DNA of 44,849 nt, taken from assembly GCA_021157815.1 (NCBI GenBank), contig JAGGVT010000191.1:1-44849 (forward strand), in the 5' to 3' direction. The DNA comes from a bacterium (GTDB lineage Bacteria > JAJVIF01 > JAGGVT01). A model generated the notes under the pieces. The model did not search any database, was not told the origin of the DNA, and was given only the letters and a program-made list of their open reading frames with translations. Position 1 is the stretch's first letter, and each line of letters starts with the position of its first letter. The translations under genes were made by a program, and so were the position numbers. This document shows, in pieces, positions 1 through 37,146 of this stretch.

Positions 1-217
1 CCATATCGCGCTTTGCGGTGATTCGTCCGGCGACTGTGATTTCATCATCCTCGTTTGAGGGAAATTTCGCGTGGATGTCCCCCGCGAATCCGGTTCGCTC
101 GAATTTGTGTCCAAAAGGGTCGATTCCTGCATCGCGCCATTTTTCAACGGCGGCTTTACGGCTTTCCATTTCGGATGAAATTTGTTCTTGTTCGTTTTTT
201 GTGTTTTCTTCTGTCAT
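1..217 (-). CDS. lysS: Lysyl-tRNA synthetase, N-terminal part (truncated by window edge)
   Basis: Reverse-strand translation from ATG at 217: MTEENTKNEQEQISSEMESRKAAVEKWRDAGIDPFGHKFERTGFAGDIHAKFPSNEDDEITVAGRITAKRDM. This matches the class II LysRS N-terminus (R..k....G.dPf...f.rt......vaGRi.akR.mG). Not in the ORF list because it runs off the edge. Confidence 0.8.
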   Translation of the reverse strand, partial: MTEENTKNEQEQISSEMESRKAAVEKWRDAGIDPFGHKFERTGFAGDIHAKFPSNEDDEITVAGRITAKRDM

Positions 218-357
218 GTTATCTTTTATACCTCGGGTTAACAGTGTCTGTTTAAATTATAACCCAATTACCGATTTGCTGATTAATAGAGGACATACCG
301 GCTATTTGGCATTTATCAAATATGAATCTTAAGTGAACATCAAATCGTTCTATCCGT

Positions 358-465
358 AAAAAGGGGACAGTCCCATAGGCTTCAAATCTGATGCTATCAA
401 TATACAATGCTGCAACCCTTCATTTATACTGTCTTTATTCACTTGCTTAGGAAAGTCCCCTTTTT
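358..465. repeat. ~108-bp intergenic element with inverted ends (AAAAAGGGGACAGTCC ... GGAAAGTCCCCTTTTT)
   Basis: Terminal inverted repeats read directly; a related AAAGGGGACAGCGCCCTTTT hairpin occurs at 40480-40498. Confidence 0.55.
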
Positions 466-615
466 ATTACCATCCTGAAGTATTCCATGTTATTTCTGTT
501 TTTTTCAATTTTAACCGGACAGTAGTGATCCCGGTTAATGAGAAACAGGGCTACCATTTATATCTATCAATGATAGATTCTTCGCTTCGCTCAGAATGAC
601 ATTTTTTCCAATGAA

Positions 616-1527
616 TCAATTCAATTCGCGGATTGTCGGTTCGAGTTTCATCAGTTCTATTAATTTCAGGTAATCATCCCATGTTAGATTCTCAGGGCGT
701 TTTTCCAGCAGGCAAACCATTATGCCCTGCAGGACATTCGCGCCGAATGAGCGGCCATCAATAACCGGTGTAGTGGTAATCAGCTGTTTGACTCCACGCT
801 TTCTCAGTTCCGCTTCATCCTCTTCGGTTGTTGTGTTCGTGATGATTATCTTGCCGTCCAGTTTGTCGGGCATGTATCGCCTGATATAGTGAAAATCACC
901 CGCAAGGATATCCTGAGGGGCGAACAGTTTTTCATATATCGCTTTTTTCTTCTGGCTCTCCTGCTTTTTACCGGTCGGATAGATAATCTTGAACGGCAGC
1001 CTTGTGAAAATCGGCAGGAGGAATTTGCCCACTCTGTCCAGTTCATTAAGTGATCGTATCTGATGATTTACGCCAAGCGCGACAATCAAATCGCCGTAAG
1101 TCATGTCGAGACCAATCTCCGCAAGTGTTTCAGCCATGCCCCATCTGTCGATGCCGCTAACGAGAAGGCATTTCATTCCCTCCTTGAGGATGCCCATTTC
1201 ATGCAGTTGTTTGACGATTTTTCGCTCCAGTGTGTGCTTGACATCGCTGCCATCGACAATGGGAGTTATTTTAGCCGCGTTTGCCATTCTTAGGGCGTCG
1301 CGGACGATGTACCTTCTGTTTCTGCGCCACAGATACAAATCAGCGCCGCCTATTCCGAAGCAGTCAACCTTGCCATCGAGCTGTTTTATTCGCTCAACCG
1401 CCTTGTCGAAATCACCATCGGTGCCTTCGCGAGAGATTCGAAAATCGTGATTGAGAAATGTTGCTTCAACGGTTTTGTTTCGAAGGGATGATCCTATCGA
1501 TACTGATACAACGGTTTTTACTGTCAT
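616..1527 (-). CDS. Quinate 5-dehydrogenase-like / shikimate-dehydrogenase-like Rossmann protein
   Basis: ORF 616..1563; ATG at 1527 preferred over the TTG at 1563. Resembles the conserved proteins annotated as quinate 5-dehydrogenase (VSVSIGSS..., GIGGADLYLW, NTTTEEDEAELRKRGVKQLITTTP). Confidence 0.6.
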   Translation of the reverse strand: MTVKTVVSVSIGSSLRNKTVEATFLNHDFRISREGTDGDFDKAVERIKQLDGKVDCFGIGGADLYLWRRNRRYIVRDALRMANAAKITPIVDGSDVKHTLERKIVKQLHEMGILKEGMKCLLVSGIDRWGMAETLAEIGLDMTYGDLIVALGVNHQIRSLNELDRVGKFLLPIFTRLPFKIIYPTGKKQESQKKKAIYEKLFAPQDILAGDFHYIRRYMPDKLDGKIIITNTTTEEDEAELRKRGVKQLITTTPVIDGRSFGANVLQGIMVCLLEKRPENLTWDDYLKLIELMKLEPTIRELN

Positions 1528-1559
1528 TTTTCTTTCACCGCCAGAATTCCTTGAATGGT

Positions 1560-2867
1560 TCAATCATCGGTAATGCTGAATTGCAAGTTTGACTCATCAA
1601 GGTAAACTCCTCGATAAATATCTTTTAACGCAATTAGTTTCACTTTCATCGGCCTTCGATGCTTTACAATTTTCTTCGCAATTTCATTAAGAGTCTGAGG
1701 CGCGATTTTTGACACCTGCCCGAACGGGTCCTGCAGAAGCCCGCGATCAAGCGCCTTGCTGCAGGCATCATGAATCATTTTCGCTGCAAGGTCACGCGCC
1801 TCGAAAAGATTCAATTTCCGCTCAACGCTTTGTTCAACGATAAGCGAACCGCTGTTGAATACAACGTACTGATCATACACATGAAAATTGACCGGTATTT
1901 TATCGCCTCGAAAAACATTCCTCGCGGAGAATACAAGAATTATAGATTCATCAGCCGATGAGCTGTTCACTTTTTCAATGATGCTGTAAAGTTCCTCGGA
2001 TGATGGTTTTTTGATTGAACAGCCAAGATTGTAGATTTCATCACCGCTTTCAAAATTGCGAAAACTTTGCTCGACCGCATCGGTAATCTGTTTTATCAAA
2101 AGGTCATTTTTAATTGTAAAGCCATACAGGCGCTGTCCCTCGAAAAAGGCGATGTCCTCTGTCTGCATGCGGTTAATGGCGGAATGTAATCCGGTTATTT
2201 CCGAATTAAGATCAGTAATTATGTTTTCAAGTCCTGTTATTTGTTTCTCTTTTTTCTGCTTTTCAGTTTCAAGGTATGTTATTTCAGTTCTTATAAATTC
2301 TATTTCCACCGTCGTATCATCAAGTTCATTTTTAATTTCAGTCAACTGAGCGCTTGAGGATGTCAGATCAGATTCGAGTTCGGTAATTGTATTTTCCAAC
2401 TGAAATTGATTCTGCGTCAGTTTATCAAGCTGCCCCTGTTTATCGATAATCTCATCACTTAGAAGTTCAAGGTCATTTCGATAGCCATCCGACTGAAGTT
2501 TTATCTCATCGCGTTGGGATGTAGCGGTTAAAATATGGTCGCCCAACTGAGTTACTTCGCTTTTTAAATTCCCTACTTCATCCTGAAGCTCGTTTCTCTC
2601 CAGTTTCATTTCCTGAATTTTATTCTGCATCTGCTCTGTTCTGAGAAGCATTTGACGCATCTGGCTTGAGAAAGTTATAAGGAGGAGGAAAGTTACAATT
2701 GAAATAACAGCGCCGATAATAATTGTAACCAACATCGCCGTTGTTCGAGGCCTTAACCCGAATATGCTGATTCGCTTTTTACCAATGCGCTTGCCAAGGA
2801 TATCACCAAAATAAGCAATAAGCATCGAGACTACGGAGATGATAATTATGAGTTTTATTCCTATCAT
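1560..2867 (-). CDS. DUF3084-like membrane-anchored coiled-coil protein
   Basis: Two N-terminal TM segments with GKRIGKKRISIFGLRPRTTA, long coiled coil, C-terminal globular domain; characteristic of DUF3084. Confidence 0.75.
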   Translation of the reverse strand: MIGIKLIIIISVVSMLIAYFGDILGKRIGKKRISIFGLRPRTTAMLVTIIIGAVISIVTFLLLITFSSQMRQMLLRTEQMQNKIQEMKLERNELQDEVGNLKSEVTQLGDHILTATSQRDEIKLQSDGYRNDLELLSDEIIDKQGQLDKLTQNQFQLENTITELESDLTSSSAQLTEIKNELDDTTVEIEFIRTEITYLETEKQKKEKQITGLENIITDLNSEITGLHSAINRMQTEDIAFFEGQRLYGFTIKNDLLIKQITDAVEQSFRNFESGDEIYNLGCSIKKPSSEELYSIIEKVNSSSADESIILVFSARNVFRGDKIPVNFHVYDQYVVFNSGSLIVEQSVERKLNLFEARDLAAKMIHDACSKALDRGLLQDPFGQVSKIAPQTLNEIAKKIVKHRRPMKVKLIALKDIYRGVYLDESNLQFSITDD

Positions 2868-2876
2868 AAAATTTCT

Positions 2877-3887
2877 CTATTCCCAATCGAGACGATTTCT
2901 CAGAGCGTCTCTCAGTTCATCAGGCGCAACAACGGCGACACCGGGTTTTCTGACCACAACTCCGGCGGCACAGTTTGCAATTTCAATCGCGTCCATAATG
3001 TTGGCACCGGCAGCCATCGCGAGAGCAAGTGTCCCGACCATTGTATCCCCAGCGCCGGAAACATCGTAAACATGGCTGGTCATTGCGGACAGGTGATGTT
3101 CCGAGCCGTCAGATTTGAAAAGGCTCAAGCCATCTCCTCCACGAGTAACCAAAAGCGCTTTGGGAGCAATTCTACCCATAAGAATATCCGCCGCTTTTTT
3201 CAGCGTTAATCTGTCGAATACTGTAATTCCAGTGAAAGCGACAGTTTCCTTCAGATTTGGAGAGATAAGCGTAACTCCTTTATAGAGATGCATATTGGCC
3301 GGCTTGGGATCAACGATTATCAGAAGTCCAAGTGATTTAGCCTTGTCGAGTACAGGCGTGAGAAGGTCTCTGCCAATCAACCCCTTGGCGTAATCGCTTA
3401 TCAGAAGCGCGTTTACGTTTTCAAGTTCAGCTGTCAGATATTCAACAAGTTTGTCACAATCATTTTTTTCTATTGGTTTGATGTCCTCGTTGTCGATTCG
3501 AAGCATCTGCTGGTTTGATGCAATAACACGGGTTTTAAGCGGAGTAATGCGTTTTGGGATTGTGAATATTCCGCTTTTTGAAATGCCGAAGGATTCGATT
3601 GTTCGAGTGAATTTCTCACCGATATTGTCATCCCCGACAATTCCCGACAGAATCGGATTCCCTCCGAGCGCGGCGATGGTCATCGCGACATTCGCCGCTC
3701 CGCCCGGACGTACCTCACGTTTCCTGATATTAACAATAGGAACAGGCGCTTCAGGAGAAATCCTTTCGGCGTTGCCCCAGATATATTCATCCAGAAGCAA
3801 ATCGCCAAGAATCAGAATTTTCTTCCCGGCAAATTCATCAATGGTTTTTTCAAATTTGTTATTTGTGTCCGGCATTTTATTATTCAT
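2877..3887 (-). CDS. rfaE1: D-glycero-beta-D-manno-heptose-7-phosphate kinase (RfaE1/HldE kinase domain)
   Basis: PfkB-family: ILGDLLLDEYIWGNAERISPEAPVPI, RPGGAANVA, DVSGAGDTMVGTLALAMA. Confidence 0.9.
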   Translation of the reverse strand: MNNKMPDTNNKFEKTIDEFAGKKILILGDLLLDEYIWGNAERISPEAPVPIVNIRKREVRPGGAANVAMTIAALGGNPILSGIVGDDNIGEKFTRTIESFGISKSGIFTIPKRITPLKTRVIASNQQMLRIDNEDIKPIEKNDCDKLVEYLTAELENVNALLISDYAKGLIGRDLLTPVLDKAKSLGLLIIVDPKPANMHLYKGVTLISPNLKETVAFTGITVFDRLTLKKAADILMGRIAPKALLVTRGGDGLSLFKSDGSEHHLSAMTSHVYDVSGAGDTMVGTLALAMAAGANIMDAIEIANCAAGVVVRKPGVAVVAPDELRDALRNRLDWE

Positions 3888-4842
3888 ACGTTGAATCCAT
3901 TAACCCGGTTAACATCCCCCACAACAGTGGAATGTTAATCTCATGATGGCCTATAATCTCAACAGATTCGCCTCCGACCTCAACCGCGCGTGCCAGAGGA
4001 TTAAGATTTGTCCGATAATGCTTCATGAAATCGAAATTTACTCCCATGAAATTTTTTAAATCGAATCCTATATTCTGGCATGCGGCAATCGCTTTCTCAA
4101 TCACAACCGGCATAACCACAGCACTGCCAATGTTGATAATCGCGCCGCCATCGGTGAGTTTGGAAATCTGATTGGTAAAAATCCTGAAATCCCGCATTGT
4201 ACCCAATCCCATTGTCGAGCCGTCCATGGATGGGTGAAAATGTATGAAATCAGTGCCGAAGGCAACATGAACAGTCAACGGAATTGAAAGCTCATACGCC
4301 TGTTTAAGCACAGAGACATCGCCATGAGGTGTTTCGGATTCACAAAGCGCTTTGCCATAGGATTCACCAAGCCCAAGGCCATCGGTGACACTGTTCATTG
4401 CGGAGTTTAAAAATTCCCCGGTTTCTTTGGTTACCGCAAATTGCCCTGTATTAATGCTGGCTTTGACATCCTCGGATGTTTCACCGAAAAGCGCGATTTC
4501 AGTATCGTGTATTGTGAAAGCTCCGTTGACGCCTATTGCAGAAATGAATCCGTTTTTCATCAGGTCGATTATAAACGGGGATACTCCAACCTTCACATTA
4601 TGCGCGCCCATTGTGGCAATAATCGGTTTTTTGTTTTGTTTAAATTCAAGAAGCATTCGCGCCAGATGTTTAAGTTGTTTCGCAGCGAGAATATCCGGCA
4701 GGCAGTTGAACAGTCCCGTCAGGTCTTTGGGATTAATTTCATCAGGCTTGCCGAAATCCTCGACATTGACGATGCTTTTTCTGTCGTGTATCGAAATAAG
4801 GTTAAGTTTCGAAAGGTCAATCTGTTCGTATTTTGATTTCAT
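3880..4842 (-). CDS. Deoxyhypusine-synthase-like NAD-binding-fold protein
   Basis: 320 aa; GAHNVKVGVSPFIIDLM, GVNGAFTIHDTE, DGGAIINIGSAVVMPVVIEKA; overlaps neighbours by 4-8 nt. Confidence 0.5.
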   Translation of the reverse strand: MKSKYEQIDLSKLNLISIHDRKSIVNVEDFGKPDEINPKDLTGLFNCLPDILAAKQLKHLARMLLEFKQNKKPIIATMGAHNVKVGVSPFIIDLMKNGFISAIGVNGAFTIHDTEIALFGETSEDVKASINTGQFAVTKETGEFLNSAMNSVTDGLGLGESYGKALCESETPHGDVSVLKQAYELSIPLTVHVAFGTDFIHFHPSMDGSTMGLGTMRDFRIFTNQISKLTDGGAIINIGSAVVMPVVIEKAIAACQNIGFDLKNFMGVNFDFMKHYRTNLNPLARAVEVGGESVEIIGHHEINIPLLWGMLTGLMDSTYE

Positions 4843-5414
4843 TTTTTGAAGTTCACAATCTGGACAGGTCCGCTGAGATTGACAAATACACGTTCGCCAG
4901 ATAAATCCACGGTTATCTGTTCAGCATGAAATTCCCAATCACCTTTGGCAAGTTTGATACTCCCACCCGCGCTTTGCAGAATGCCATCCTCGCCTGAAAA
5001 GAAAATTTCCTCAGCCCAGAAAGTGGAAAGGTCATCATTACGGACAGCATTTACTCCACCTGACAATCGCATCTCGCTGGCTTTCTGGTCGTAATTCCCT
5101 TCCGGTGCGGTTAGTGTAATGCTGGTTTCATCATCAACCTGAATCAGCGCTTTGGGTTGTGTCATCCTGAATTCACCCTGTACATTGCCATTAAGGTCAA
5201 CGCTTTCCAGAATCCATCGAACACGCCCATCCGACGCAATCTCCTCAACACGAGTAGTGCGTGCGCTGATTGAACCAATCTCGTTTTCAGGAGTTTTCGA
5301 GATTCTATCCGCAGGATCAATATCAGGCTGGTTCATCAGAGCATAAAACGTGCCCCATCCCGCGATGAGCATCATGGCAAACCAGAATAACAGATATGAA
5401 TATCGTCCCAGCAT
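4839..5414 (-). CDS. lptC: LPS export ABC transporter periplasmic protein LptC
   Basis: N-terminal TM anchor followed by OstA-like beta repeats (WILESVDLNGNVQGEFRMTQPKALI...LTAPEGNYDQKASEMRLSGGVNAV). Confidence 0.75.
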   Translation of the reverse strand: MLGRYSYLLFWFAMMLIAGWGTFYALMNQPDIDPADRISKTPENEIGSISARTTRVEEIASDGRVRWILESVDLNGNVQGEFRMTQPKALIQVDDETSITLTAPEGNYDQKASEMRLSGGVNAVRNDDLSTFWAEEIFFSGEDGILQSAGGSIKLAKGDWEFHAEQITVDLSGERVFVNLSGPVQIVNFKK

Positions 5415-5534
5415 ATTTCCCTGTGCCTTTATGGCCAGATAATCTTTAATCAGGTTTGTTTAATATACATAAAATCTTATCACAGACTTTAAGTGATAAA
5501 AACCGTTTGTACAAACCCGCATACGCTAATCTCC

Positions 5535-5563
5535 TTGACTATCATGCAAAGGATAACTAAAAT
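5535..5563 (+). promoter_or_regulatory. Predicted sigma70-type promoter for the SurA-like gene
   Basis: TTGACT - 17 nt - TAAAAT, about 85 nt upstream of the ATG at 5649. Confidence 0.5.
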
Positions 5564-5648
5564 TAATTGTTTGTGCCTGATTTCACGGCATCAAAATTAG
5601 TTTGGATAATCTCTAAAATAAAGAAAAGTTATAGAGAGGCAGAAATCG

Positions 5649-7658
5649 ATGAAACGCAAGAAAAGATATTTAACAACAATTGACTACTTCAGGACAAATA
5701 TAAAGTGGTTCATGATGGTTGTGGCCACAATTTTTATCGCGGGTATTTTCATTGGGCCTGGATTTGGCTCATACGGAAGCATGCAGTGCGGCGGCGATAA
5801 AACTGCGCATTTAACCCGCCAGCAATATGCTGAGCAGGAAAGCGAGGTAATGGCTCGCATGGGTGACAATGAATTCAGGGCTTATACCATTAACCAAAAA
5901 ACGGCCAATCGCCTTACCAGGTACACAAGAAACAGTCCCGGAACGATTATTTCACCGGAGCAGAAGATATCGGTTACATGGAGCATGCTTAACGAAGAAA
6001 TTGAAAAAACCTTAAAACTGGAAAAAGCAAAGGAATCAAATATCGAATTAAAGGCTGAAGAAATAAACGAGGTTTATGATAGTGAGAAGCAGAATATAAT
6101 GAGTGGAAGAGGATTAAGTACATCCACTTCAGAAGGCAATGTTAGTCTTTTGCAGATGGCGGATCGAAAAATTCAGGCTCAGAAATCAGAACGAGCGTTC
6201 CTCAGTTTTCTTTCGAGCCAGCTTCACATGTCACCAAAGGATTTTAAGAACATCATTCGGGATAATCTTCTTGTTGAAAAATACACAGAGAGCCTGAATG
6301 ATGAAGCAAAAGAACAGGTGAAATCGGACGCAAAGAGAGAATCGATTGAGTTATACAACAGAATTGTATCCGAGGGTGAGAATTTCGCCGAAGTGGCAGA
6401 AAACGAAAGTGATGAAAGTTCATCAGCAGCAAATGGCGGCCTTGTCGAGGACATGACAAGAAAAGACGCCAAAGCCAAAGATGATGAATATGCAACCGCT
6501 TTATTTACATCTGAAATAGGGAAAGTGCAGGAACCGTTGGAACTAGATGATGGGTTTTATATCATCAAGGTTGAAGACCGCACTCTCGCTGAAGGCGAGG
6601 ATTTCGAAAACGCAAAGGATGGCATTATCGCTGAAATAAAAGATGAGCTTGGAATCACTGATGATGAGGAAGAGAAAGAGCCTGAGGTAAAGGAATACTC
6701 AGATGAGGAGCTCACCGAGATGGCATCAACAGAGGGAATCGAAGAAGATACCGAAAAGGAATCTGTCGAATCTGAAAATCAGATTACTGACTACATGATA
6801 AAAGAGCGCTATGAGAAAGTTACTTTCCGCCTGATTTTTGTCAGGCCTGAAAGTTATCAGACTCGATATCAAGAAAATCTTAAGGCAATAAAAAAAGAGG
6901 AGGGAGTCGAAATAGTTGATCCCTTGATGAAGGCGTATAGTTACGTTGCGGATTATCAGGGTGATCGTGATTTCGATTCAGCGATCGAGGGCTTCAGGGC
7001 AATACGTGAGGAACGTCTTCTGACACTTAATGAAGAGAAAACCATCTGGCAGGAAAAAGAAACGGAACTTGAAAACGCTCCTGAAGATAAAAGAATTAAA
7101 CTGCTTGAAGAAACTGTCGTCCATGAAAGAAGCGTTGAGTACGCAAACACCAACCTCGCTCAGATTGATTACCTGATAGCGTATTACATGCAGGAAAAAA
7201 TCGCTTTTGTTGAGAATGAGATGATGACTGCTGAAGAACCGGATGAGAGTGCACAGGAAAAAGCTCAGTCAATGATTGATGAACTTCATTCAGAAATGCG
7301 CATATTGATTGAAGAAGCTGTCGCGTCTGAAAGCACACCGGATCCGTACTACAACGCCATGCTGGGTGACCTTCAGCTTGACGCGGGAGAATGGGTCGCG
7401 GCATACGAGAACTGGTCAATTGTGGCGGATTATGGCGAACGTGATCTCAGCCTTCTCCAAAGGGCGCAACCAGCTTTCAACAAGTTCCTTGAATTTCTTG
7501 AGGACGAGGAAATGCGTAAGAAAGCCGGAAAGGAATTCGATAAACTTCAAAAGAACCTTGACAAGGCGCTTGAAATACAGCGCAAACAGCAGGAGGAATG
7601 GCAGGCTCAAATGCAGAAAATGATTGAGGAGATGTCTCAGGAAGGCGAGTTGGAATAG
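5649..7658 (+). CDS. Membrane-anchored SurA/PpiD-type peptidyl-prolyl isomerase / chaperone
   Basis: Single N-terminal TM, SurA_N-like helices, a parvulin-like stretch (FAEVAENESDESSSAANGGLVEDMTR...LFTSEIGKVQEPLELDDGFYIIKVEDR) and a C-terminal TPR-like segment. Confidence 0.75.
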   Translation: MKRKKRYLTTIDYFRTNIKWFMMVVATIFIAGIFIGPGFGSYGSMQCGGDKTAHLTRQQYAEQESEVMARMGDNEFRAYTINQKTANRLTRYTRNSPGTIISPEQKISVTWSMLNEEIEKTLKLEKAKESNIELKAEEINEVYDSEKQNIMSGRGLSTSTSEGNVSLLQMADRKIQAQKSERAFLSFLSSQLHMSPKDFKNIIRDNLLVEKYTESLNDEAKEQVKSDAKRESIELYNRIVSEGENFAEVAENESDESSSAANGGLVEDMTRKDAKAKDDEYATALFTSEIGKVQEPLELDDGFYIIKVEDRTLAEGEDFENAKDGIIAEIKDELGITDDEEEKEPEVKEYSDEELTEMASTEGIEEDTEKESVESENQITDYMIKERYEKVTFRLIFVRPESYQTRYQENLKAIKKEEGVEIVDPLMKAYSYVADYQGDRDFDSAIEGFRAIREERLLTLNEEKTIWQEKETELENAPEDKRIKLLEETVVHERSVEYANTNLAQIDYLIAYYMQEKIAFVENEMMTAEEPDESAQEKAQSMIDELHSEMRILIEEAVASESTPDPYYNAMLGDLQLDAGEWVAAYENWSIVADYGERDLSLLQRAQPAFNKFLEFLEDEEMRKKAGKEFDKLQKNLDKALEIQRKQQEEWQAQMQKMIEEMSQEGELE

Positions 7659-7680
7659 CATCCGAGCAATTGAATTGGCA

Positions 7681-8862
7681 ATGATAAAACGTGAACAAAA
7701 ATCAGATTCCCCCGGTGACTCCGGGGGTTTTTATCCGGTGAAAACACTTTGGCGTTTAACGCGAATTTTCTGCATCGGTATCCTGCTTTGTGTAATGGCG
7801 ATACCTTACGCGCAAGCTGAGCCATTCGAACTGGTTGAAACCATGGATTATGGCGATGGGTTGGTTTATTCCGCATACAAACATGAATCGGTCGGAACTT
7901 TTTATTTCATCAAGCTAAAAGCGTCATCTGAAAAGTGGCGGCTCGTTCCCGTTTCCAACTGTAAGGGAATAAGGAAATGCGGCAATGTAAAACAGCTTGC
8001 GCTTGATTTCAACAAAGAAGCGCGAATCGCAGTCAACGCATCATTCTTTGATACCGCCAAATACCCGATTGGAACTGTGGCATCGGATGGCGTAATAATG
8101 TCCCTGGATAACCGAAAGCGAACGTCTCTCGGCATAAAAACCGATGGCAAAGGCATAATGGACGTTATCAGCCCAAGAGCGTTTATCACTTCGGATGACT
8201 ATTTCGAGCCAATCTGGATATGGGGATATAATCAGCCATCCAAGAAGAACGCGATAATTTGCTACAATCAGAACAATGGCAGCTCGTTTATAAACCTGCC
8301 GTCGGATGCTAAAGCTCTTGTCGTTGAATCTGAAAAAGTAATTGATATCGTTGCGAAGGGAAAAACCGCAATTCCGGATAATGGCCTGGTTCTGCTATTC
8401 AGAGGCAAATCACGAACGCACCTTGATAGATTCACGACAGGATGCGGAGTTTTGCTGGGACTTGTCATGCCGAAGGAATGGGAGAATACATCGTCGATAA
8501 TCACCGGCGGACCAAGAATAATCAATGATGCCAGACTGGTTGATTTGAAGAAGAACCATGAGAATTTTGAATCAAGGTTGTTTAAATCCCACAGAAGAAC
8601 GATTGTTGGATTAACGTGGAACGATGAGTTTTTTATCGCGGTGTTTCCCAAATCGGTAACCTATGACACAGCGGCTAAAGTGCTTCTCGCGATGAATGCG
8701 AAGGACGCCATGGGGCTTGACGGCGGCTCATCGACAAGTTTGTGGGTACGAGGTGTAAAGTATTTCAACGGGTCAAAAAGCGTTCCGGTTGCACTTGCTG
8801 TGGTTCCCCGGAACGAAGAGTCAAATCCCCTGCCATGGTTTGAGAATAAATACTGGAAATGA
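7681..8862 (+). CDS. Phosphodiester glycosidase (NAGPA-domain) family exported protein
   Basis: Signal-like N-terminus; AVNASFFDTAKYPIGTVASDGVI, GGPRIINDAR, GLDGGSSTSLWVRG. ATG at 7681 preferred, which removes the overlap with the upstream gene. Confidence 0.75.
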   Translation: MIKREQKSDSPGDSGGFYPVKTLWRLTRIFCIGILLCVMAIPYAQAEPFELVETMDYGDGLVYSAYKHESVGTFYFIKLKASSEKWRLVPVSNCKGIRKCGNVKQLALDFNKEARIAVNASFFDTAKYPIGTVASDGVIMSLDNRKRTSLGIKTDGKGIMDVISPRAFITSDDYFEPIWIWGYNQPSKKNAIICYNQNNGSSFINLPSDAKALVVESEKVIDIVAKGKTAIPDNGLVLLFRGKSRTHLDRFTTGCGVLLGLVMPKEWENTSSIITGGPRIINDARLVDLKKNHENFESRLFKSHRRTIVGLTWNDEFFIAVFPKSVTYDTAAKVLLAMNAKDAMGLDGGSSTSLWVRGVKYFNGSKSVPVALAVVPRNEESNPLPWFENKYWK

Positions 8863-8883
8863 ATGGCACTATGCAAATGAAAA

Positions 8884-8906
8884 AAGCCGGACTTAAAGTC
8901 CGGCTT
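8884..8906. terminator. Hairpin terminator between convergent genes
   Basis: AAGCCGGACTT-A-AAGTCCGGCTT, perfect 11-bp stem flanked by A- and T-rich sequence. Confidence 0.85.
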
Positions 8907-8931
8907 GTTGTTATCGGTTGTTGAGAATATA

Positions 8932-10803
8932 TCAGTTTGCAGAAACCAGAGGTTTGTAATTAAAACCGTCAGATGTAATCTGAACCGGTTCAGGATCAGG
9001 AGAAGCCATATCGTAAACAACGATGTCATGCGCATTCATAAGATCAAGAACCGTTTCAAAAACAACCAGGAGACCATCAGGAGAGATATCCGGGTTTGCA
9101 TATACCATTTCCATGCTAACGGAGTCTTCAGTGATTGGCGTAACACCATCCATTTCATTCCAAATCATGATATTTGCCGCGCCATGATCTTCCGATACAA
9201 AGACAAGTTGAATACCCATTCCATCGAACTGTGGAGATGTGTCATTGATGTCGGTGTTAGCAGTTATGTTTATCTGAGAGTCAGGCACATTCAAATCGAG
9301 AACATAGATTTCCATGTCATTTTCCAGGGCATCGGCATCAATACCGCTATATGCCAATTTCATCCCAGTACTGGAAATGGAAAGTCCAATTTTTGCCATG
9401 ACCAAGTCGCCATCGTTTGTCATCTGCTGATCATTCATACCCATAAAATCACATGTAAATATTTCTGTTCCCATTGCTGGTGTTGCTGTATATGCAATTA
9501 ACGGATTATCCGCAGCCATCACACATTCGAACACATTCTCCTGTGGAAGCTGATACAGGTCAGATGTAATCTCATTATAAATCCACATTCTCATTCCCAT
9601 TGCATCATAAAGCAGGACAATGGAACCATCGCTGTTTGCACTGACAGCAGATGGTTTGAAAAGGCATATATCGTCGGAACCATCAATGTTCATCCTGTAA
9701 CCTTTTGTATAGCCCGGAATGACTTTATCGCTGTCATAAATGATTTTGGACAAGTCAGCGGTTACGCCATTTGCCTGTGTAGTGGCTGAGTAGAATGTCA
9801 ATTGAGTATCAAGCGAAGCATTGGTAAACATTGAATGAACTTCAGAAACCCCCATGCCATCGGATTTTGTATAGACGAATTTCCTTGCGCCAGGTTCCTG
9901 AATAACTTCAACAGTTACCCAACCATAAGCATTGACATCCCAGACATTTGGGGAATACGCTTCAATTGGGATGTTGTATTCACCGATTGGAAGGCTGAGA
10001 GGATTGGAAATTTCACATTCCCAAATATTTGTTACATCGTTAAATACCATATCAACCATTTCATGGGTAAATAATGACAAATCCGCTTTTACCCACTCAA
10101 CATCTCTCTGCCAGTCAAGAACATCGCAACCCATTGTTGCTGTACCACCCTGTGGAGTCATGTATCCCTCAGTAAGGCCATGAGAAACAATTTCATAAGG
10201 TTCCTGAATGTTTTCTCCGAATGAACATTCAGTGATAAACAGAGTATCAATGGTGCATCCAGGCACAAATCTCATGCTGAAAAAATCCAAAACTCCAGTG
10301 GATCCTTCTACCGCCCTTTGAGATGATTCCTTGGCAAAAGCAAGGAAAGGCTTAGAATATACTCCGATAGAGGGCCAGAGCACAGTGTATCCATCAATAT
10401 CAGCAATTTCCTTGTTATAAGGATTCGCGAAGATAAGCCTTGCATCATAAACTGTAATTGATGTCGGATTCTGCATTAAAACACCGATATCAAGCCAGCC
10501 GTCCTCTCTGACATCCATCACCAAAAACCTGAGGCAGCCGTTAGGACACATGTCAAGATACTGTGTGAAATCGAAATGTGTTAAGCTGGCGTTGCGCACC
10601 GGTGTGACGGTGAATTCCATTGTATCTGGATCAAAACTCGCATTATACACACCTGTCACAGTGTGATTGCCATCTGAATTCTCAACTGCCGGATTTGTGT
10701 CGCCCAGATTTTCGATAGGATTTGCGTTTGTGGAACATCCAATTCCCAGCACAATAATAAATGCTGTGATAATCATTCCCAGGAAAAGTTTCGACATTTT
10801 CAA
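8932..10803 (-). CDS. Lipoprotein: shared CxxxCL module + Ig-like segment + TolB/WD40-like propeller
   Basis: Lipobox VLGIGC|STN; TPVRN...MCPNGCLRF...; C-terminal propeller motifs (ISSTGMKLAYSG, NINDTSPQFDGMGIQLVFVSE, NPDISPDGLLVVFET). Confidence 0.7.
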   Translation of the reverse strand: MKMSKLFLGMIITAFIIVLGIGCSTNANPIENLGDTNPAVENSDGNHTVTGVYNASFDPDTMEFTVTPVRNASLTHFDFTQYLDMCPNGCLRFLVMDVREDGWLDIGVLMQNPTSITVYDARLIFANPYNKEIADIDGYTVLWPSIGVYSKPFLAFAKESSQRAVEGSTGVLDFFSMRFVPGCTIDTLFITECSFGENIQEPYEIVSHGLTEGYMTPQGGTATMGCDVLDWQRDVEWVKADLSLFTHEMVDMVFNDVTNIWECEISNPLSLPIGEYNIPIEAYSPNVWDVNAYGWVTVEVIQEPGARKFVYTKSDGMGVSEVHSMFTNASLDTQLTFYSATTQANGVTADLSKIIYDSDKVIPGYTKGYRMNIDGSDDICLFKPSAVSANSDGSIVLLYDAMGMRMWIYNEITSDLYQLPQENVFECVMAADNPLIAYTATPAMGTEIFTCDFMGMNDQQMTNDGDLVMAKIGLSISSTGMKLAYSGIDADALENDMEIYVLDLNVPDSQINITANTDINDTSPQFDGMGIQLVFVSEDHGAANIMIWNEMDGVTPITEDSVSMEMVYANPDISPDGLLVVFETVLDLMNAHDIVVYDMASPDPEPVQITSDGFNYKPLVSAN

Positions 10804-11054
10804 ACCTCCGTAGAAAGGTAAGATATGTATTGGTTTATATATTTAAGTGGACTAAAATATTACTCTTACATACTGGTTATGTCAATTTATTTTTATGCCA
10901 ATTATTGAGAGTTTTAGATAATTGTTAAATATGATAAAATCAGGTTAGCTAAAATGATTAAATATGATTAAGTCCGATTAATTTTCCACAATAGCATCCG
11001 CATAATAATGAAAAGTAATATGATATTAGTATCTATTGAACAACCATGATTTCC

Positions 11055-11083
11055 TTGACCCTTAATTGTGGTGGTGATAACAT
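11055..11083 (+). promoter_or_regulatory. Possible promoter upstream of ahcY
   Basis: TTGACC - 17 nt - TAACAT; weak -10 match. Confidence 0.3.
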
Positions 11084-11152
11084 TTGCCGGTTTTTTGAGA
11101 TAATAATTTTTATGCTAAATAAGTAATAACTAATTCAAGGAGTATCAAAATA

Positions 11153-12418
11153 ATGGTTAAGATTCCCAGCGACATAAAGGATTCAGCCCTTTGGAAAGAG
11201 GGAGTGGATAAAATCGAATGGGCGCGGATGGAAATGCCTGTTCTGAGAAAGATCGAGGCGGATTTTAAAAAGAACAAACCTTTTAAAGGCATTCGAATGG
11301 CGGCTTGCCTTCACGTAACAACTGAAACCGCAAACCTGATGCGGTGTTTGAAATCTGGAGGAGCGGATGTGCACCTGTGCGCGTCAAACCCGCTATCCAC
11401 TCAGGATTCAACCGCGGCCGCGCTGGTGGAAAAATACGGCATTCCGGTTTACGCCATACATGGTGAAAACAATAAAGTATATTACAAGCACATTCATCAA
11501 GTGCTTGATATCAAGCCTCATCTGACAATGGATGACGGCGCGGATTTGGTCTCGACTCTTCACAAGGACAGAAAACCTTTGATAAAGGACATAATCGGCG
11601 GAACTGAGGAAACAACAACAGGCGTGATTCGACTTCGCTCTATGGCTGCCGACAAGGCGCTTAAATATCCGATTATAGCAGTCAATGACGCCATGACGAA
11701 ACACTTTTTCGATAACCGTTACGGCACCGGGCAATCCACGATAGACGGTCTTTTAAGATCAACAAATATTCTGCTTTCAGGCAAGCATTTTGTGGTTGCC
11801 GGTTACGGCTGGTGCGGACGCGGTTTGGCGATGCGCGCTGCTGGAATGGGAGCAAGAGTTATTGTAACTGAAATTGATCATGTAAAAGCGATTGAAGCTG
11901 TCATGGATGGTTTCGATGTTATGCCGATGAATGACGCCGCGAGTATCGGAGATATTTTCATCACACTGGCAGGAAACTGCAATGTCATTAATGGCGATCA
12001 TCTCAAGGCAATGAAGAACGGCGCTATCGTCGCCAACTCCGGCCACTTCGATTCCGAGATTGATCTGAAGGCTTTGAACAAACTCGCGAAGAAAGCTCCG
12101 AGACGGATTCGGCATGAGCTTGATGAGTATGTCATCGGGACGAAGAAGATCTATCTGGTCGCGCAGGGACGGTTGATTAATCTGGCATCAGCGGAGGGGC
12201 ATCCGGCAAGTGTTATGGACATGAGCTTTGCGAACCAGGCGCTGTGCAGTGAGTACATGATTAAAAACGCGAAGAAACTGAAAAAGACTGTTTATCCGGT
12301 TCCTCTGGATATCGATAATAAAATCGCGGCGATTAAGCTTGATACGATGGGAATCAAGATCGACAAGCTCACGAAAGAGCAGATTAAATATCTGGCAAGC
12401 TGGAAAGAGGGTACATAA
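11153..12418 (+). CDS. ahcY: Adenosylhomocysteinase
   Basis: [76 protein letters not shown]. Confidence 0.95.
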
Positions 12419-12443
12419 GGTTTAAAAAGGTAAGATGTTTTTT

Positions 12444-12500
12444 CCCCGGCAAAGGGATGCCGGGTTACATATTTCCCCAACAAGGGGATGCCGGGTTACA
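12444..12500. repeat. Two copies of the CCCGG...CCGGGTTACA hairpin repeat (12444-12469 and 12475-12500)
   Basis: CCCCGGCAAAGGGATGCCGGGTTACA and CCCCAACAAGGGGATGCCGGGTTACA. Confidence 0.85.
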
Positions 12501-12501
12501 T

Positions 12502-13407: not shown

Positions 13408-13520
13408 TACACTCTCCGTGATGGAATGAATTGTGAACCTGATAGAAATACCGAATGAATTGTAATGATGAGAATGAAATAAATCAACAGTATGATAATA
13501 TGGCGGTTAGCCTACGGATT

Positions 13521-13576
13521 CCCCGGTGAAGGGACACCGGGTTACAGGTTCCCCGGTGAAGGGACACCGGGTTACA
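13521..13576. repeat. Tandem pair of the hairpin repeat (30-bp period)
   Basis: CCCCGGTGAAGGGACACCGGGTTACA at 13521-13546 and 13551-13576, identical. Confidence 0.9.
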
Positions 13577-21013: not shown

Positions 21014-22327
21014 TTACGCCTCCTTCTCCATGATAGTTACTGTAACATAAGTGCCTGTACCGGCGTGGCTGTGGATTGCCCCGACTTTTGCATCGGGCAG
21101 GAAAAGAGTTTTATCATTGAAATGTTTGGGAATTGTTCCCTGAAGCTGCCATAATGCAAAAACGCCCTGCATGATTCCGGATGCTCCGACCGGATGGCCA
21201 CAGGCAATCAAGCCTCCTGATGGATTAACAGGACAAACCGACTTATCTTTAAGTTTTAGGCCGTAATCGATATTGGGCATGAACGCTTTTCCACTGGCTG
21301 CGAAATCTCCACCCTCGCCGTACTTGCAGAGCCCCATATCTTCATAAGTCTGCATTTCACTTGATGTATAAGCATCATGCAGCTCGACAAAGTCAATCTG
21401 TCCAAGCGGGTCGGTGATTCCAGCCATCTCGTACGCCATCTTCGATGCCGTTCGTCCGGCTCGGAAACTATGAACTCCGGGATACTTGAGATCTTTATAG
21501 TCCTCAGGAGATTCGTTTGGAAGAAGAATGACATCCCCATGCGGACGGTCAGACATTCGCATCATGTCAGTGCCGCTACCGATTCCAGTCAGTTTGACTT
21601 TTGGAATTCGCTTTCCAGACTCTTTTTCCAGCTTGGCAACGCCATCTTCAGATGCCAGCATAATAGTTGCAGCGCCATCTGACATTACACAAATATCCAG
21701 CCTTGTTAGAGGATATGCAACCATCGGAGCATTGCGGACATCCTCAATTGTAAGTTTCAACTGTTTCTGTGAATATGGGTTGTGATAAGCGTTGTAGTGA
21801 TTCTTTACGGATATATGTGCGAGTTGCTCAACGGTTGTGCCAAACTCTTTCATGTGGCGAACAACCATCATCGCATAGTAACCGGAATAGAATCCGCCAA
21901 CAGGGAAATCCCAGCTGACATCGGATGCAAGTGCGATAAATTCGTTTCCCTTCCATGTGTTGACATGGCTCATGGTTTCAAAACCATAACAGGGACAAAT
22001 ATCCATTTGGCCGGAAGCGATTGATTTCCAACCTTCCTGAATGCACATGCCACCGGTTGCTCCACCACTTTCCACTCTGAGAGAGGGTTTCGGGCAAAGC
22101 CCAAGATAATCGGTAGCCATGATTCCGCCCATGAGTTGACGGGCGAAATGGTCTGAGAAATAAGAGGATACCGAGCCGTCACACATCTCGATAAATTTCT
22201 TGTACTCGATACCTAAATCATTGACAGCATAGTCAAAAGATTCTTTGACCAGCGCCTGATAAGTGGCGTCCGGACGAGCTTTTGCAAATTTTGAAACGCC
22301 GCCGGCAACAGCATAAACAGGACGCAT
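21014..22327 (-). CDS. Thiolase-superfamily protein (SCP2/lipid-transfer type)
   Basis: FVELHDAYTSSEMQTYEDMGLC, NPSGGLIACGHPVGASGIMQ, AIHSHAGTGTYVTV. Confidence 0.85.
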   Translation of the reverse strand: MRPVYAVAGGVSKFAKARPDATYQALVKESFDYAVNDLGIEYKKFIEMCDGSVSSYFSDHFARQLMGGIMATDYLGLCPKPSLRVESGGATGGMCIQEGWKSIASGQMDICPCYGFETMSHVNTWKGNEFIALASDVSWDFPVGGFYSGYYAMMVVRHMKEFGTTVEQLAHISVKNHYNAYHNPYSQKQLKLTIEDVRNAPMVAYPLTRLDICVMSDGAATIMLASEDGVAKLEKESGKRIPKVKLTGIGSGTDMMRMSDRPHGDVILLPNESPEDYKDLKYPGVHSFRAGRTASKMAYEMAGITDPLGQIDFVELHDAYTSSEMQTYEDMGLCKYGEGGDFAASGKAFMPNIDYGLKLKDKSVCPVNPSGGLIACGHPVGASGIMQGVFALWQLQGTIPKHFNDKTLFLPDAKVGAIHSHAGTGTYVTVTIMEKEA

Positions 22328-22505
22328 ATAATACCTCCCATGAATGGCTCAGAAGCAAGTCGGTAATTAATTCATGACCGAATTTCAGTTGTCACCGAGC
22401 CTGAAATGAATTTGATAAAAAATTCACAAGGTGGAAAAATATATCCGCCTTATGAAAGCTTAGATATCCTAATACTTATTATTATTTGTGTCAATATGAA
22501 ATTGG

Positions 22506-22697
22506 TTAGCAGGTTAGTAAGTTAGCAAGTTAGTAAGTTAGCAGGTTAGCAAGTTAGCAGGTTAGAAAGTTAGCAGGTTGGAAAGTTAGTAAGTTAGCAG
22601 GTTAGCAAGTTAGCAGGTTAGAAAGTTAGCAGGTTAGTAGGTTAGAAAGTTAGCAGGTTAGCAGGTTAGAAAGTTAGCAGGTTAGTAGGTTAGCTTG
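22506..22697. repeat. 8-bp tandem array, 24 units (TTAGYARG consensus)
   Basis: Units TTAGCAGG/TTAGTAAG/TTAGCAAG/TTAGAAAG at 22506+8n, no indels. Confidence 0.95.
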
Positions 22698-22769
22698 CTG
22701 TGCCCCGATGTGCATCATTATAAATGGCAACTTCAGGGCGCAGCAGGGAATAGCGCGGCAAGGAAACTG

Positions 22770-22927
22770 TCTCAGAACCTGCATTTTCTGTCATCCTGAG
22801 CGAAGCGAAGGATCTATTCTCGATAGCGTATATTAAATTCACCAGGTTTAATCATCAACACAGAAGCATATAGATTCTTCGCTACGCTCAGAATGACAAA
22901 TATCATGCCTATAATAGAGTTCTGAGA
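22770..22927. mobile_element. MITE-like element copy 1 (TCTCAGAAC ... GTTCTGAGA termini)
   Basis: Inner inverted repeats TGTCATCCTGAGCGAAGCGAAGGATCTAT / ATAGATTCTTCGCTACGCTCAGAATGACA; second copy in opposite orientation at 32269-32427. Confidence 0.75.
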
Positions 22928-23013
22928 CGCCTTCCAATCAGCGCCCCTACGGAGTGTAAGATTTGAAATACAGATTTATTATGAACATCATCACTTACAT
23001 AAAAAATGGAACG

Positions 23014-23045
23014 AAAAAAGACCGCAGGATTCATCGACGGTCTTT
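23014..23045 (-). terminator. Predicted rho-independent terminator
   Basis: Minus strand: AAAGACCG-(13 nt)-CGGTCTTTTTT. Confidence 0.75.
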
Positions 23046-23107
23046 AAATAATCATTATGCAACTGAACCACTTTATATTTCTGTCTCATTTCAGGGGTGC
23101 AGTATAA

Positions 23108-23187
23108 CCTGTTAACTTACTAACTTACTAACTTACTAACCTGCTAACTTACTAACTTGCTAACCTGCTAACTTACTAACCTGTTCA
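23108..23187. repeat. Inverted 8-bp tandem array, 10 units, running into the stop codon of the minus-strand lipoprotein gene
   Basis: CTTACTAA/CCTGCTAA/CTTGCTAA units are reverse complements of the 22506-22697 units. Confidence 0.95.
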
Positions 23188-24918
23188 CTGACGGTACATG
23201 CTTTCCAACACAGCCATTCCGCCTTCGTTGATGATTTCAAAAGTCGAAGTGTTCCAGTTCGGGTCTTCATCGACATTGTTCAGCGCGACCATTGTTACGA
23301 GCATATTGCCATCATCATCAATCCACTCATAAACCATAGCTTTCGAAAGCTCATACCCAAACAGTTTCATATCGATTATGGTTCGTAATTGAAGGGCGCT
23401 TTTTGTGGTTCCGCCACTGAGAGGTATGGTGCATAAGCCCATTCCGACTGCAGTGGTGTCATAGTTAATTGTAACCATTTCCATTAATCCACCGGTACCA
23501 AATTTGCGTTTGAACGCAGTGCTGGAATTATAAGGGTACGGGAAACCATCGATTGTTCCCGCAAACACAACGGATCCGTTGAACATATCCATTTCATAAA
23601 AACCAAGCGGCGTGCATTTATTGTTAGCGTAATCATGTTTTTCAGCCTGGTAATACAGACCGGAGCCAATTCCGAATTGGCCATCATTCTTGACAAAATG
23701 CTCTCTACCAGGGAAATCGTTAGTAAACAATGCAACTTCAGAATCACTCGGCGACAAAATCGACCGCTGCGCATCACCGTTAAATGCAATACCGGTGAAA
23801 TCCCAGGGCCCGTCGTAGTCAAGATAGTCAACCATGGTTCTGGTAATTACTCCATCAAAGGAATCGAAATTGTAGTAGTTCCCTATTGTTTTGTAGTCAT
23901 CATCCTCAGAAAGAGTGATTTCAACATCCAGAACCTCTTGATATACCTCAGCTGTTAAAATTACAAGCGTGGAAAAGTCATAGGAATAATTTGCGGATTC
24001 AGTGTCAATAACACGAACAAGCACGTTGTATGTTCCAGCAGGAGCGTTTTTCTGGTTTGTTACCATTGCGGAATAAGTCGCGTTGTTTCCAGCACCGGAT
24101 TCAAAAGAAAGGTTAACCGGAGCGTTGAAAAGGCTGTCGCAGTATGCAACCACCTGGCTGATAGTCTCAATGCCCTGGTAATCATACATGTCAACGGAAA
24201 TTTCAGCTGATCCGCCGATATCGGTTAATCCATCGGAGATTTCACCATCAAGGTTGATAACCTCAAACGAATTCATTTCCATTGGGAAAGTAACGCCGTC
24301 ATTTGGCGCCCAGCTGGCATCGACTGCGATATCAAAATTAAACGATTCAAGCGGCAGTTGAACAAGAAACGTTTCTGTGAAAACATCACCGGGAGCGAAA
24401 GGCCGTCGCTCAACTCCCTTGTTGTATGCGATGTAACTGTTGACATATCCGGGAATGGTTGGATTATCCCATAACGCGGTCAAGCCATCGTTGTTTTGAA
24501 TAGCGGTGCTGACACCAACACCGTAGTAATTCAGATCCGGCGGGAAAATCGCGATTACTCGAAGGTCAAACACTGTGAACATGGGGGCTGTCGTAGGATG
24601 AGTAACCTCAATATCACACTGTACAATATTGTCAGGCAGGAATTGAATATTTTTAACCTTAAGACAATTGCCGCAAGGCCATCCAAGCAGATATTCCTTT
24701 GCGTTCATGTGCGCGTTGAGTTCACGATTTGGCGTGATTGATCCTGTCTGTGTATCAGTTTCAAGATTCACCGTGTAATGCCCAAGGAAAGCCCGATTTG
24801 ATACAGCCTGCGCGTTTGGCTGGGTGATGTCATCAGGCTGGATAACACTATTCTGAGAACATGATCCCAGAAGAAGTGCAAAAACAGCAATGAGAATGGG
24901 GAAGAGTATTCTTCGCAT
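23185..24918 (-). CDS. Lipoprotein: shared CxxCL module + Ig-like segment + unassigned C-terminus
   Basis: Lipobox LLLGSC|SQN; ITPNRELNA...WPCGNCLKVKNIQF...VTHPTTAPMFTVFDLRV. Confidence 0.65.
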   Translation of the reverse strand: MRRILFPILIAVFALLLGSCSQNSVIQPDDITQPNAQAVSNRAFLGHYTVNLETDTQTGSITPNRELNAHMNAKEYLLGWPCGNCLKVKNIQFLPDNIVQCDIEVTHPTTAPMFTVFDLRVIAIFPPDLNYYGVGVSTAIQNNDGLTALWDNPTIPGYVNSYIAYNKGVERRPFAPGDVFTETFLVQLPLESFNFDIAVDASWAPNDGVTFPMEMNSFEVINLDGEISDGLTDIGGSAEISVDMYDYQGIETISQVVAYCDSLFNAPVNLSFESGAGNNATYSAMVTNQKNAPAGTYNVLVRVIDTESANYSYDFSTLVILTAEVYQEVLDVEITLSEDDDYKTIGNYYNFDSFDGVITRTMVDYLDYDGPWDFTGIAFNGDAQRSILSPSDSEVALFTNDFPGREHFVKNDGQFGIGSGLYYQAEKHDYANNKCTPLGFYEMDMFNGSVVFAGTIDGFPYPYNSSTAFKRKFGTGGLMEMVTINYDTTAVGMGLCTIPLSGGTTKSALQLRTIIDMKLFGYELSKAMVYEWIDDDGNMLVTMVALNNVDEDPNWNTSTFEIINEGGMAVLESMYRQ

Positions 24919-32268: not shown

Positions 32269-32427
32269 TCTCAGAACATGGAATTTTGCGCGAAATATTG
32301 TCATTCTGAGCGCAGCGAAGAATCTATAAGTTGCTGTGTTGATGATTAAACCAGATGAAATTAATCCACGCTATCGAGAATAGATCCTTCGCTGCGCTCA
32401 GGATGACAGAAAAAGGGGGGTTCTGAG
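32269..32427. mobile_element. MITE-like element copy 2, inverted relative to 22770-22927
   Basis: Reverse complement reads TGTCATCCTGAGCGCAGCGAAGGATCTATTCTCGATAGCGTGGATTAATTTCATCTGGTTTAATCATCAACACAG..., collinear with copy 1. Confidence 0.75.
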
Positions 32428-32482
32428 GCACCCCGGTTTCCGGCAAGGGTCCTGAGGCATCCCGGTTTCCGGCAAGGGTGCC
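32422..32482. repeat. ~29-bp direct repeat x2
   Basis: TCTGAGGCACCCCGGTTTCCGGCAAGGGT / CCTGAGGCATCCCGGTTTCCGGCAAGGGT. Confidence 0.75.
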
Positions 32483-36744: not shown

Positions 36745-37146
36745 GGATTCCGGGTCAAGCCCGGAATGACAAACTACTGTCATTCTGTGAACTAATGTCA
36801 TTCTGTGAACTAATGTCATTCTGTGAACTACTGTCATTCCGTGAGTTACTGTCATTCTGTGAGTTACTGTCATTCCGTGAGTTACTGTCATTCCGTGAGT
36901 TACTGTCATTCTGTGAGTTACTGTCATTCCGTGAGTTACTGTCATTCTGTGAACTACTGTTATTCCGTGAGTTACTGTAATTCCGTGAGTTACTGTAATT
37001 CTGTGAACTAATGTCATTCCGTGAGTTACTGTAATTCTGTGAGTTACTGTAATTCTGTGAACTAATGTCATTCCGTGAGTTACTGTCATTCCGTGAGCTA
37101 CTGTCATTCCGTGAGTTACTGTCATTCCGGGCTTGACCCGGAATCC
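36745..37146. repeat. 18-bp tandem array (19 units) bounded by inverted repeats
   Basis: GGATTCCGGGTCAAGCCCGGAATGACA (36745-36771) and TGTCATTCCGGGCTTGACCCGGAATCC (37120-37146) bracket GTCATTCYGTGARYTAMT units at 36779+18n. Confidence 0.95.

Follow-up and report, generated by a model that had tools for sequence, protein, structure and literature searches.

Among the short tandem repeats of bacteria, the cyanobacterial STRR heptamers form intergenic arrays throughout the genome and serve as strain markers, and at the loci of VNTRs, or long simple sequence repeats, unit number varies by whole units between strains, with units that are usually unrelated from locus to locus. To our knowledge, polarity relative to gene borders is no defining feature of the cyanobacterial STRR. 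Investigations on Xanthomonas and Nostoc revealed hundreds of intergenic arrays of the heptamers GGGAATC and GGGGA(C/T)T, which overlap stop codons and read outward on both sides of genes, with 70-75 convergent pairs (Rehm et al. 2015, PMC4692102). The 5′ neighbour lies on average 28 nt away and the 3′ neighbour 160 nt, the functions of the adjoining genes are unrelated, array length varies among close relatives, and four units are preferred; quadruplexes were considered, and no function was found (Rehm et al. 2015, PMC4692102). Intergenic arrays of the heptamer TAACTGA, with up to 43 copies, have been described in Beggiatoaceae, Cyanobacteria and Bacteroidetes; in the main genome studied, they mostly comprise 2-6 copies just upstream of start codons, and post-transcriptional roles were proposed for them (MacGregor 2015, PMC4679880).

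The window analyzed here, a stretch of 44,849 nucleotides from a 3.2-Mb draft genome (221 contigs, 90.9% complete), contains two arrays of an octamer, GTTAG(C/T/A)A(A/G), in inverted orientation (Table 1). Array 1 consists of 23 consecutive 8-bp units without an indel, including the unit GTTGGAAA, and is extended by the broken unit GTTAGCTT. Array 2, read on the minus strand, contains 8 perfect units (23117-23180) and then a GTTAACAG unit, beyond which a degenerate GTTATACT follows. The original prediction had counted 24 and 10 units, which is right to within one degenerate unit in each array, and its description of phased, indel-free units in a mixed order of variants, not the product of a single recent slippage of one unit, holds as well. 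As the reversed pattern is absent from both the window and the whole genome, the window arrays are not a product of chance. Array 2 had been described as running directly into the stop codon of a lipoprotein gene, which is nearly exact: 4 nt (ACAG) separate it from the TGA (23187-23185, minus strand) of a gene for a 577-aa protein. A probable intrinsic terminator of this gene, whose hairpin lies 63 nt downstream of array 2, was seen in the sequence and in the RNA fold, and was left unflagged by a strict terminator scan owing to its long loop. Because this hairpin sits beyond array 2, it is plausible from the sequence that the array lies within the transcribed 3′ UTR of the 577-aa gene, in agreement with a 3′-UTR role suggested earlier. 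An Rfam search of the window gave no match.

Table 1. Features of the window around the two octamer arrays
Feature	Position	Strand	Remarks
Thiolase-like gene (Thiolase_C_1, Thiolase_N)	21014..22327	-	upstream region bordered by array 1
Array 1	22505..22688	+	5′ end toward start of thiolase-like gene, 177 nt off; 3′ end into spacer
Decayed final unit of array 1 (GTTAGCTT)	22689..22697	+	
MITE-like dispersed element	22753..22944	.	26-nt imperfect terminal inverted repeats; independent of arrays
Probable intrinsic terminator of 577-aa gene	23014..23045	-	hairpin AAAGACCG...CGGTCTTT, then T-run
Array 2, 9 units	23109..23180	-	5′ end 4 nt past stop of 577-aa gene, sense
577-aa gene, stop adjoins array 2	23185..24918	-	no Pfam match

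Other repeats of the window are of different kinds. At 36775-37129, about 20 tandem copies of the 18-bp unit TACTGTCATTCCGTGAGT are found, in which the word TGTCATTCCG is common to the dispersed repeats. Two-copy tandems of 29-31 bp at 12441-12501, 13519-13576 and 32418-32479 resemble REP-like palindromes (CCCGGTG..CACCGGG) and have hundreds of BLAST matches across the sampled genome.

A genome-wide search revealed that the two arrays belong to a large family, so that the absence of other copies, which would have spoken for chance or artefact, is not what was found. Three consecutive GTTAGHAR units match 736 times on the forward and 818 times on the reverse strand of the whole genome, and the slightly stricter GTTAGYAR pattern 658 and 779 times; the latter gave no match in 384 other genomes, of which three belong to the same class, and a plasmid search gave none either. 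In the 1.65 Mb examined, which include the window, 70 arrays with 1079 units were delineated, from which about 130-140 arrays can be extrapolated for the genome. The spacing from unit to unit is 8 bp in 1008 of 1009 steps; the sole break of phase, at 1268-1386 (minus strand) of L225, is a 5-bp block with a GTTGCAG-like unit that splits one array in two. The median length is about 15 units, a value to be read in light of the many arrays that sit at contig ends and of short-read assembly, which may distort unit numbers. Within the octamer, positions 1, 2, 3 and 7 hardly vary, position 6 holds C or T and sometimes A, and position 8 holds A or G; positions 6 and 8 carry about 91% of the minor-allele cells over the 70 arrays, and the other six vary by 1.4% per site. 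Tandem Repeats Finder detected no other octamer array in the genome. Single intergenic units outside arrays are not enriched (27, against 38 for the reversed control), and only 3 sites carry GTTAGYARGTTAG; the octamer thus occurs in array form or else is absent. None of the 70 arrays lies inside an open reading frame. The array-bearing genes have ordinary housekeeping functions, including glutamate dehydrogenase, methylmalonyl-CoA mutase, NADH dehydrogenase, RsgA and HydF, and the domains of their products are complete up to the C terminus.

The arrays are strictly arranged relative to gene borders. The 5′ end of the G-rich strand adjoins a gene, typically at -5 to +13 nt from the stop codon, and from there the array extends away from the gene into the spacer. 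Of 62 arrays, 32 have a sense stop codon within -24 to +20 nt of the 5′ end, against 2 with an antisense stop at the 3′ end (p = 7e-8), and in 10 cases the first unit supplies the stop codon with its TAG. Spurious open frames would bear on the two sides alike, because all frames of both array strands contain stops. In 44 of the 50 arrays compared, the distance to a gene is shorter from the 5′ end than from the 3′ end (30:2 at stop sides, 14:4 at start sides), and where a sense gene lies on the 5′ side, 31 of 37 arrays start at most 15 nt from the stop, compared with 103 of 357 blocks of dispersed repeats. About one third of the arrays lie on the start side of a gene; where the 5′ side faces the start of a divergent gene, a promoter-sized gap is kept and the array is still directed away from the gene. 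Some arrays begin just past terminators, and one begins 22 nt after a tRNA gene. In 44 of 61 arrays, the 5′ flank is single-copy and the 3′ flank repetitive, the reverse arrangement being found in 2, and the right-hand spacers often hold high-copy dispersed repeats. The spacer between stop codon and array is 81% purine, with 8% T against a background of 32%. Array orientation shows no agreement with GC skew (27 of 56), so that the replication strand is without effect on it. These observations suggest that the direction of array growth or action is set by the neighbouring gene. Two simple accounts of the location were rejected: GTTAG is not enriched after the stops of array-free genes, which argues against a gene-end motif as the seed of arrays, and the arrays are not supported as terminator substitutes, as a terminator stands before the array in 3 and after it in 6 of 37 cases.

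Regarding array dynamics, a conspecific IMG/VR contig (L081) was compared with contig 167 of the host genome, to which it is 99.6-100% identical. Two arrays differ in length, one by exactly 15 units (120 bp) and the other by exactly 5 (40 bp; -15 and -5), and three adjacent arrays are identical. The comparison of unit numbers between strains that had been proposed at the outset therefore shows that the arrays change length by whole units, and such changes between near-identical strains indicate that the arrays are active. In the order of units, identical neighbours are avoided and identity is enriched at lag 2 and lag 4, as if 16-bp dimers multiplied. Whole arrays may perhaps also have been copied between loci: unit strings are shared between loci more often than expected from an order-1 Markov model and no more often than from an order-2 model, and none exceeds 10 units. 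Unit decay is greatest at the array edges, which is typical of tandem arrays under unequal exchange. Within positions 1-11642, the IMG/VR contig has the head module of a phage, with genes for terminase, portal, protease, major head protein and head-tail adaptor. Octamer arrays directly follow three of these genes (portal, protease and head protein), and dispersed repeats of the host stand between them; this contig is a resident prophage that was colonized by host repeats and is possibly domesticated.

The same octamer occurs in a few arrays in Pseudoalteromonas, Glaciecola, Marinomonas, Moorena, several Bacteroidota, Desulfosporosinus, Veillonella, a planctomycete and others, with 2 to 39 three-unit matches in each of 16 of these genomes; as only GTTAGYAR was searched across phyla, these counts do not give its frequency relative to other octamers. 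Its presence in viral contigs is at background level, since the reversed control, RAYGATTG, is as common (found in 8 contigs, the real pattern in 9). The polarity recurs in these species, where a sense stop stands at the 5′ end in 22 cases and an antisense stop at the 3′ end in 3 (p = 1.6e-4; 11:2 in Pseudoalteromonas and 11:1 in other GTDB genomes). In other intergenic arrays with units of 7-11 bp (L031-L089, L238-L320), the G-richer strand likewise tends to run outward from the stop codon (12:3). At several sites in Pseudoalteromonas (L039, L042, L047, L055, L066, L073, L076 and others), a conserved tail, ..CTAGA..CCTACC.CTTGTGTCAAG.AACTCGCTAACTTTAC, stands behind the GTTAGCAA arrays and is retained between species despite differing unit numbers.

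The arrays are best read as a lineage-specific, recently amplified, polar family of short tandem repeats that falls in the STRR/LSSR class, with a short fixed unit at many loci (70 arrays in 1.65 Mb) and whole-unit length polymorphism. The unit is 8 bp long, however, in contrast to the cyanobacterial heptamers, which also differ in sequence, and unlike in VNTRs, one unit occupies about 130 loci with a fixed polarity. The arrays of Xanthomonas and Nostoc share with the present ones the G-rich start at the gene border, the outward reading and the convergent pairs (here 32:2 at stops and 44:6 overall), whereas their units are 7 bp long and contain G-tracts, and the arrays are short. As GTTAGYAR provides at most GG across units, and therefore no run of the three or more G residues that give G-quadruplex capacity, quadruplexes are not required for the shared geometry. 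The TAACTGA arrays resemble the present family in that their opposite-strand units contain GTTA and read away from the gene, and in whole-unit length changes between strains; they are located upstream of starts, whereas the GTTAGYAR arrays lie mostly behind stop codons and have an octamer that is degenerate at two positions. The array polarity is that of telomeric G-strands. Tails added from a template, as by a telomerase or a retroelement, were rejected, as the genome, which is 90.9% complete, gave no RVT_1 match in a search for reverse transcriptase. The genome contains 9 Y1_Tnp (RAYT-type transposase) genes, and no arrays were found near the 6 RAYT loci that were read, which gives no link to REP/RAYT systems. 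The units stand head to tail without spacers, unlike those of a CRISPR array.

With about an even chance of being correct, we regard the arrays as a recently amplified, polar, STRR-type satellite that slippage-prone synthesis has probably extended outward from gene borders. The arrays would enlarge through replication slippage or unequal exchange in blocks of one to many units, with 16-bp dimers favoured, and their founding growth would proceed 5′ to 3′ outward: where the spacer has a nick, gap or break, the 3′ end on the gene side would be extended by slippage-prone DNA synthesis. Selection would retain only those arrays that spare coding sequences, promoters and terminators. Stop-side arrays would be transcribed as 3′ UTR, and a dedicated function would be unnecessary. 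Of the models considered, only outward growth from the gene-side 3′ end, with selection protecting the gene, predicts the rule for both sides of genes. Slippage alone leaves the spread of the octamer to about 130 places unexplained, and the concentration of the variation at two positions could equally reflect selection on GTTAG.A. as a putative binding site.

Such selection is central to a possible, although rather unlikely, alternative, in which the arrays are functional elements of 3′ UTRs or gene borders. The GUUAGYAR units would be putative sites for protein binding to RNA or DNA or would protect 3′ ends, and selection would fix both sequence and orientation; in one variant, the protection would be directed, for example, against antisense transcription, the antisense strand being C-rich and G-poor like Rho loading sites. 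The limitation of the variation to positions 6 and 8, the fixed sense orientation right behind stop codons and the place of array 2 between a stop codon and a terminator are consistent with this alternative, as are the post-transcriptional roles proposed for the TAACTGA arrays (MacGregor 2015, PMC4679880). However, the arrays stand at a small share of genes with no common function, and those on start sides lie outside the 3′ UTR. Single and double sites are unenriched, unlike those of most binding motifs, unit number differs widely between strains, and the low divergence at the other positions is also expected of young arrays that are not under selection.

An unlikely reading is that transcription itself drives the expansion. 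Past the stop codon, the nascent RNA is free of ribosomes and would form R-loops, and the exposed purine- and G-rich non-template strand would slip, which would account for the sense orientation and the anchoring at stop codons. The predominance of sense-oriented stop-side arrays, the purine-rich, T-poor spacer, the array behind the tRNA gene and an orientation that tracks genes rather than GC skew point in this direction. In contrast, the start-side arrays follow the same outward rule where no transcript is known, some arrays start past terminators, and the spread of one octamer is left unexplained. A wider proposal, which we consider doubtful, is that a general, sequence-indifferent process in bacteria produces polar arrays of 7-8-bp units that extend outward from gene borders, either by end or nick extension from the gene-side 3′ end or by transcription-linked slippage; the host genome would then be an extreme case of a single octamer, and the arrays of Xanthomonas, Nostoc, Pseudoalteromonas and Bacteroidota would be products of the same process.

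The original prediction noted that the inverted pair could form a long stem around the MITE and proposed to look for inversion of the segment; as a key idea, a functional stem or an invertible segment is not supported. About 9 intergenic regions, including that of the window, carry two arrays; in all of them the arrays face each other (-> <-), and the back-to-back arrangement (<- ->) was never seen. The pair in the window, with array 2 behind the 577-aa gene and array 1 upstream of the thiolase-like gene, reaches 81-95% complementarity over 44-88 nt in several registers, a length sufficient for recombination or for folding into a long stem, and the minus-strand RNA has a fold z-score of -21 against shuffled sequences. 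The predicted MITE is also real, with arms TGTCATCCTGAGCGAAGCGAAGGATCT / AGATTCTTCGCTACGCTCAGAATGACA, and half of the genome contains about 45 further, partial copies. Nevertheless, most arrays stand single, and the long stem is therefore a by-product of the border rule: inverted pairs are merely intergenic regions with an array at each border. Between paired arrays, each locus has a different segment, the arrays are not associated with any gene for an integrase or invertase, and the other MITE copies align only to the inner segment and carry no octamer arrays. The MITE was thus rejected as a carrier of the arrays, the arrays do not serve as its terminal inverted repeats, and a recombination or inversion device, or a transposable element around the MITE with the arrays as its ends, is very improbable and was rejected as a general account; the arrays are no special inverted device, and neither the stem nor the MITE nor inversion is what matters about them. 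Assembly artefact or contamination, for which the many arrays at contig ends of a fragmented draft (221 contigs) might speak, is hardly conceivable, as arrays lie inside long contigs at many loci and the separately deposited conspecific contig, with flanks 99.6-100% identical, has arrays at the same sites.

Why dispersed arrays of 7-8 bp arise in bacteria, and how one unit spreads to more than 100 places in a genome, has been an old question since STRRs were described. A strict polarity relative to gene borders without the capacity for G-quadruplexes removes the explanation that was considered for Xanthomonas. A directional mechanism of growth, or a directional function at the 3′ ends of genes, thereby becomes directly testable, and culturable Pseudoalteromonas with polar arrays would provide a laboratory model.
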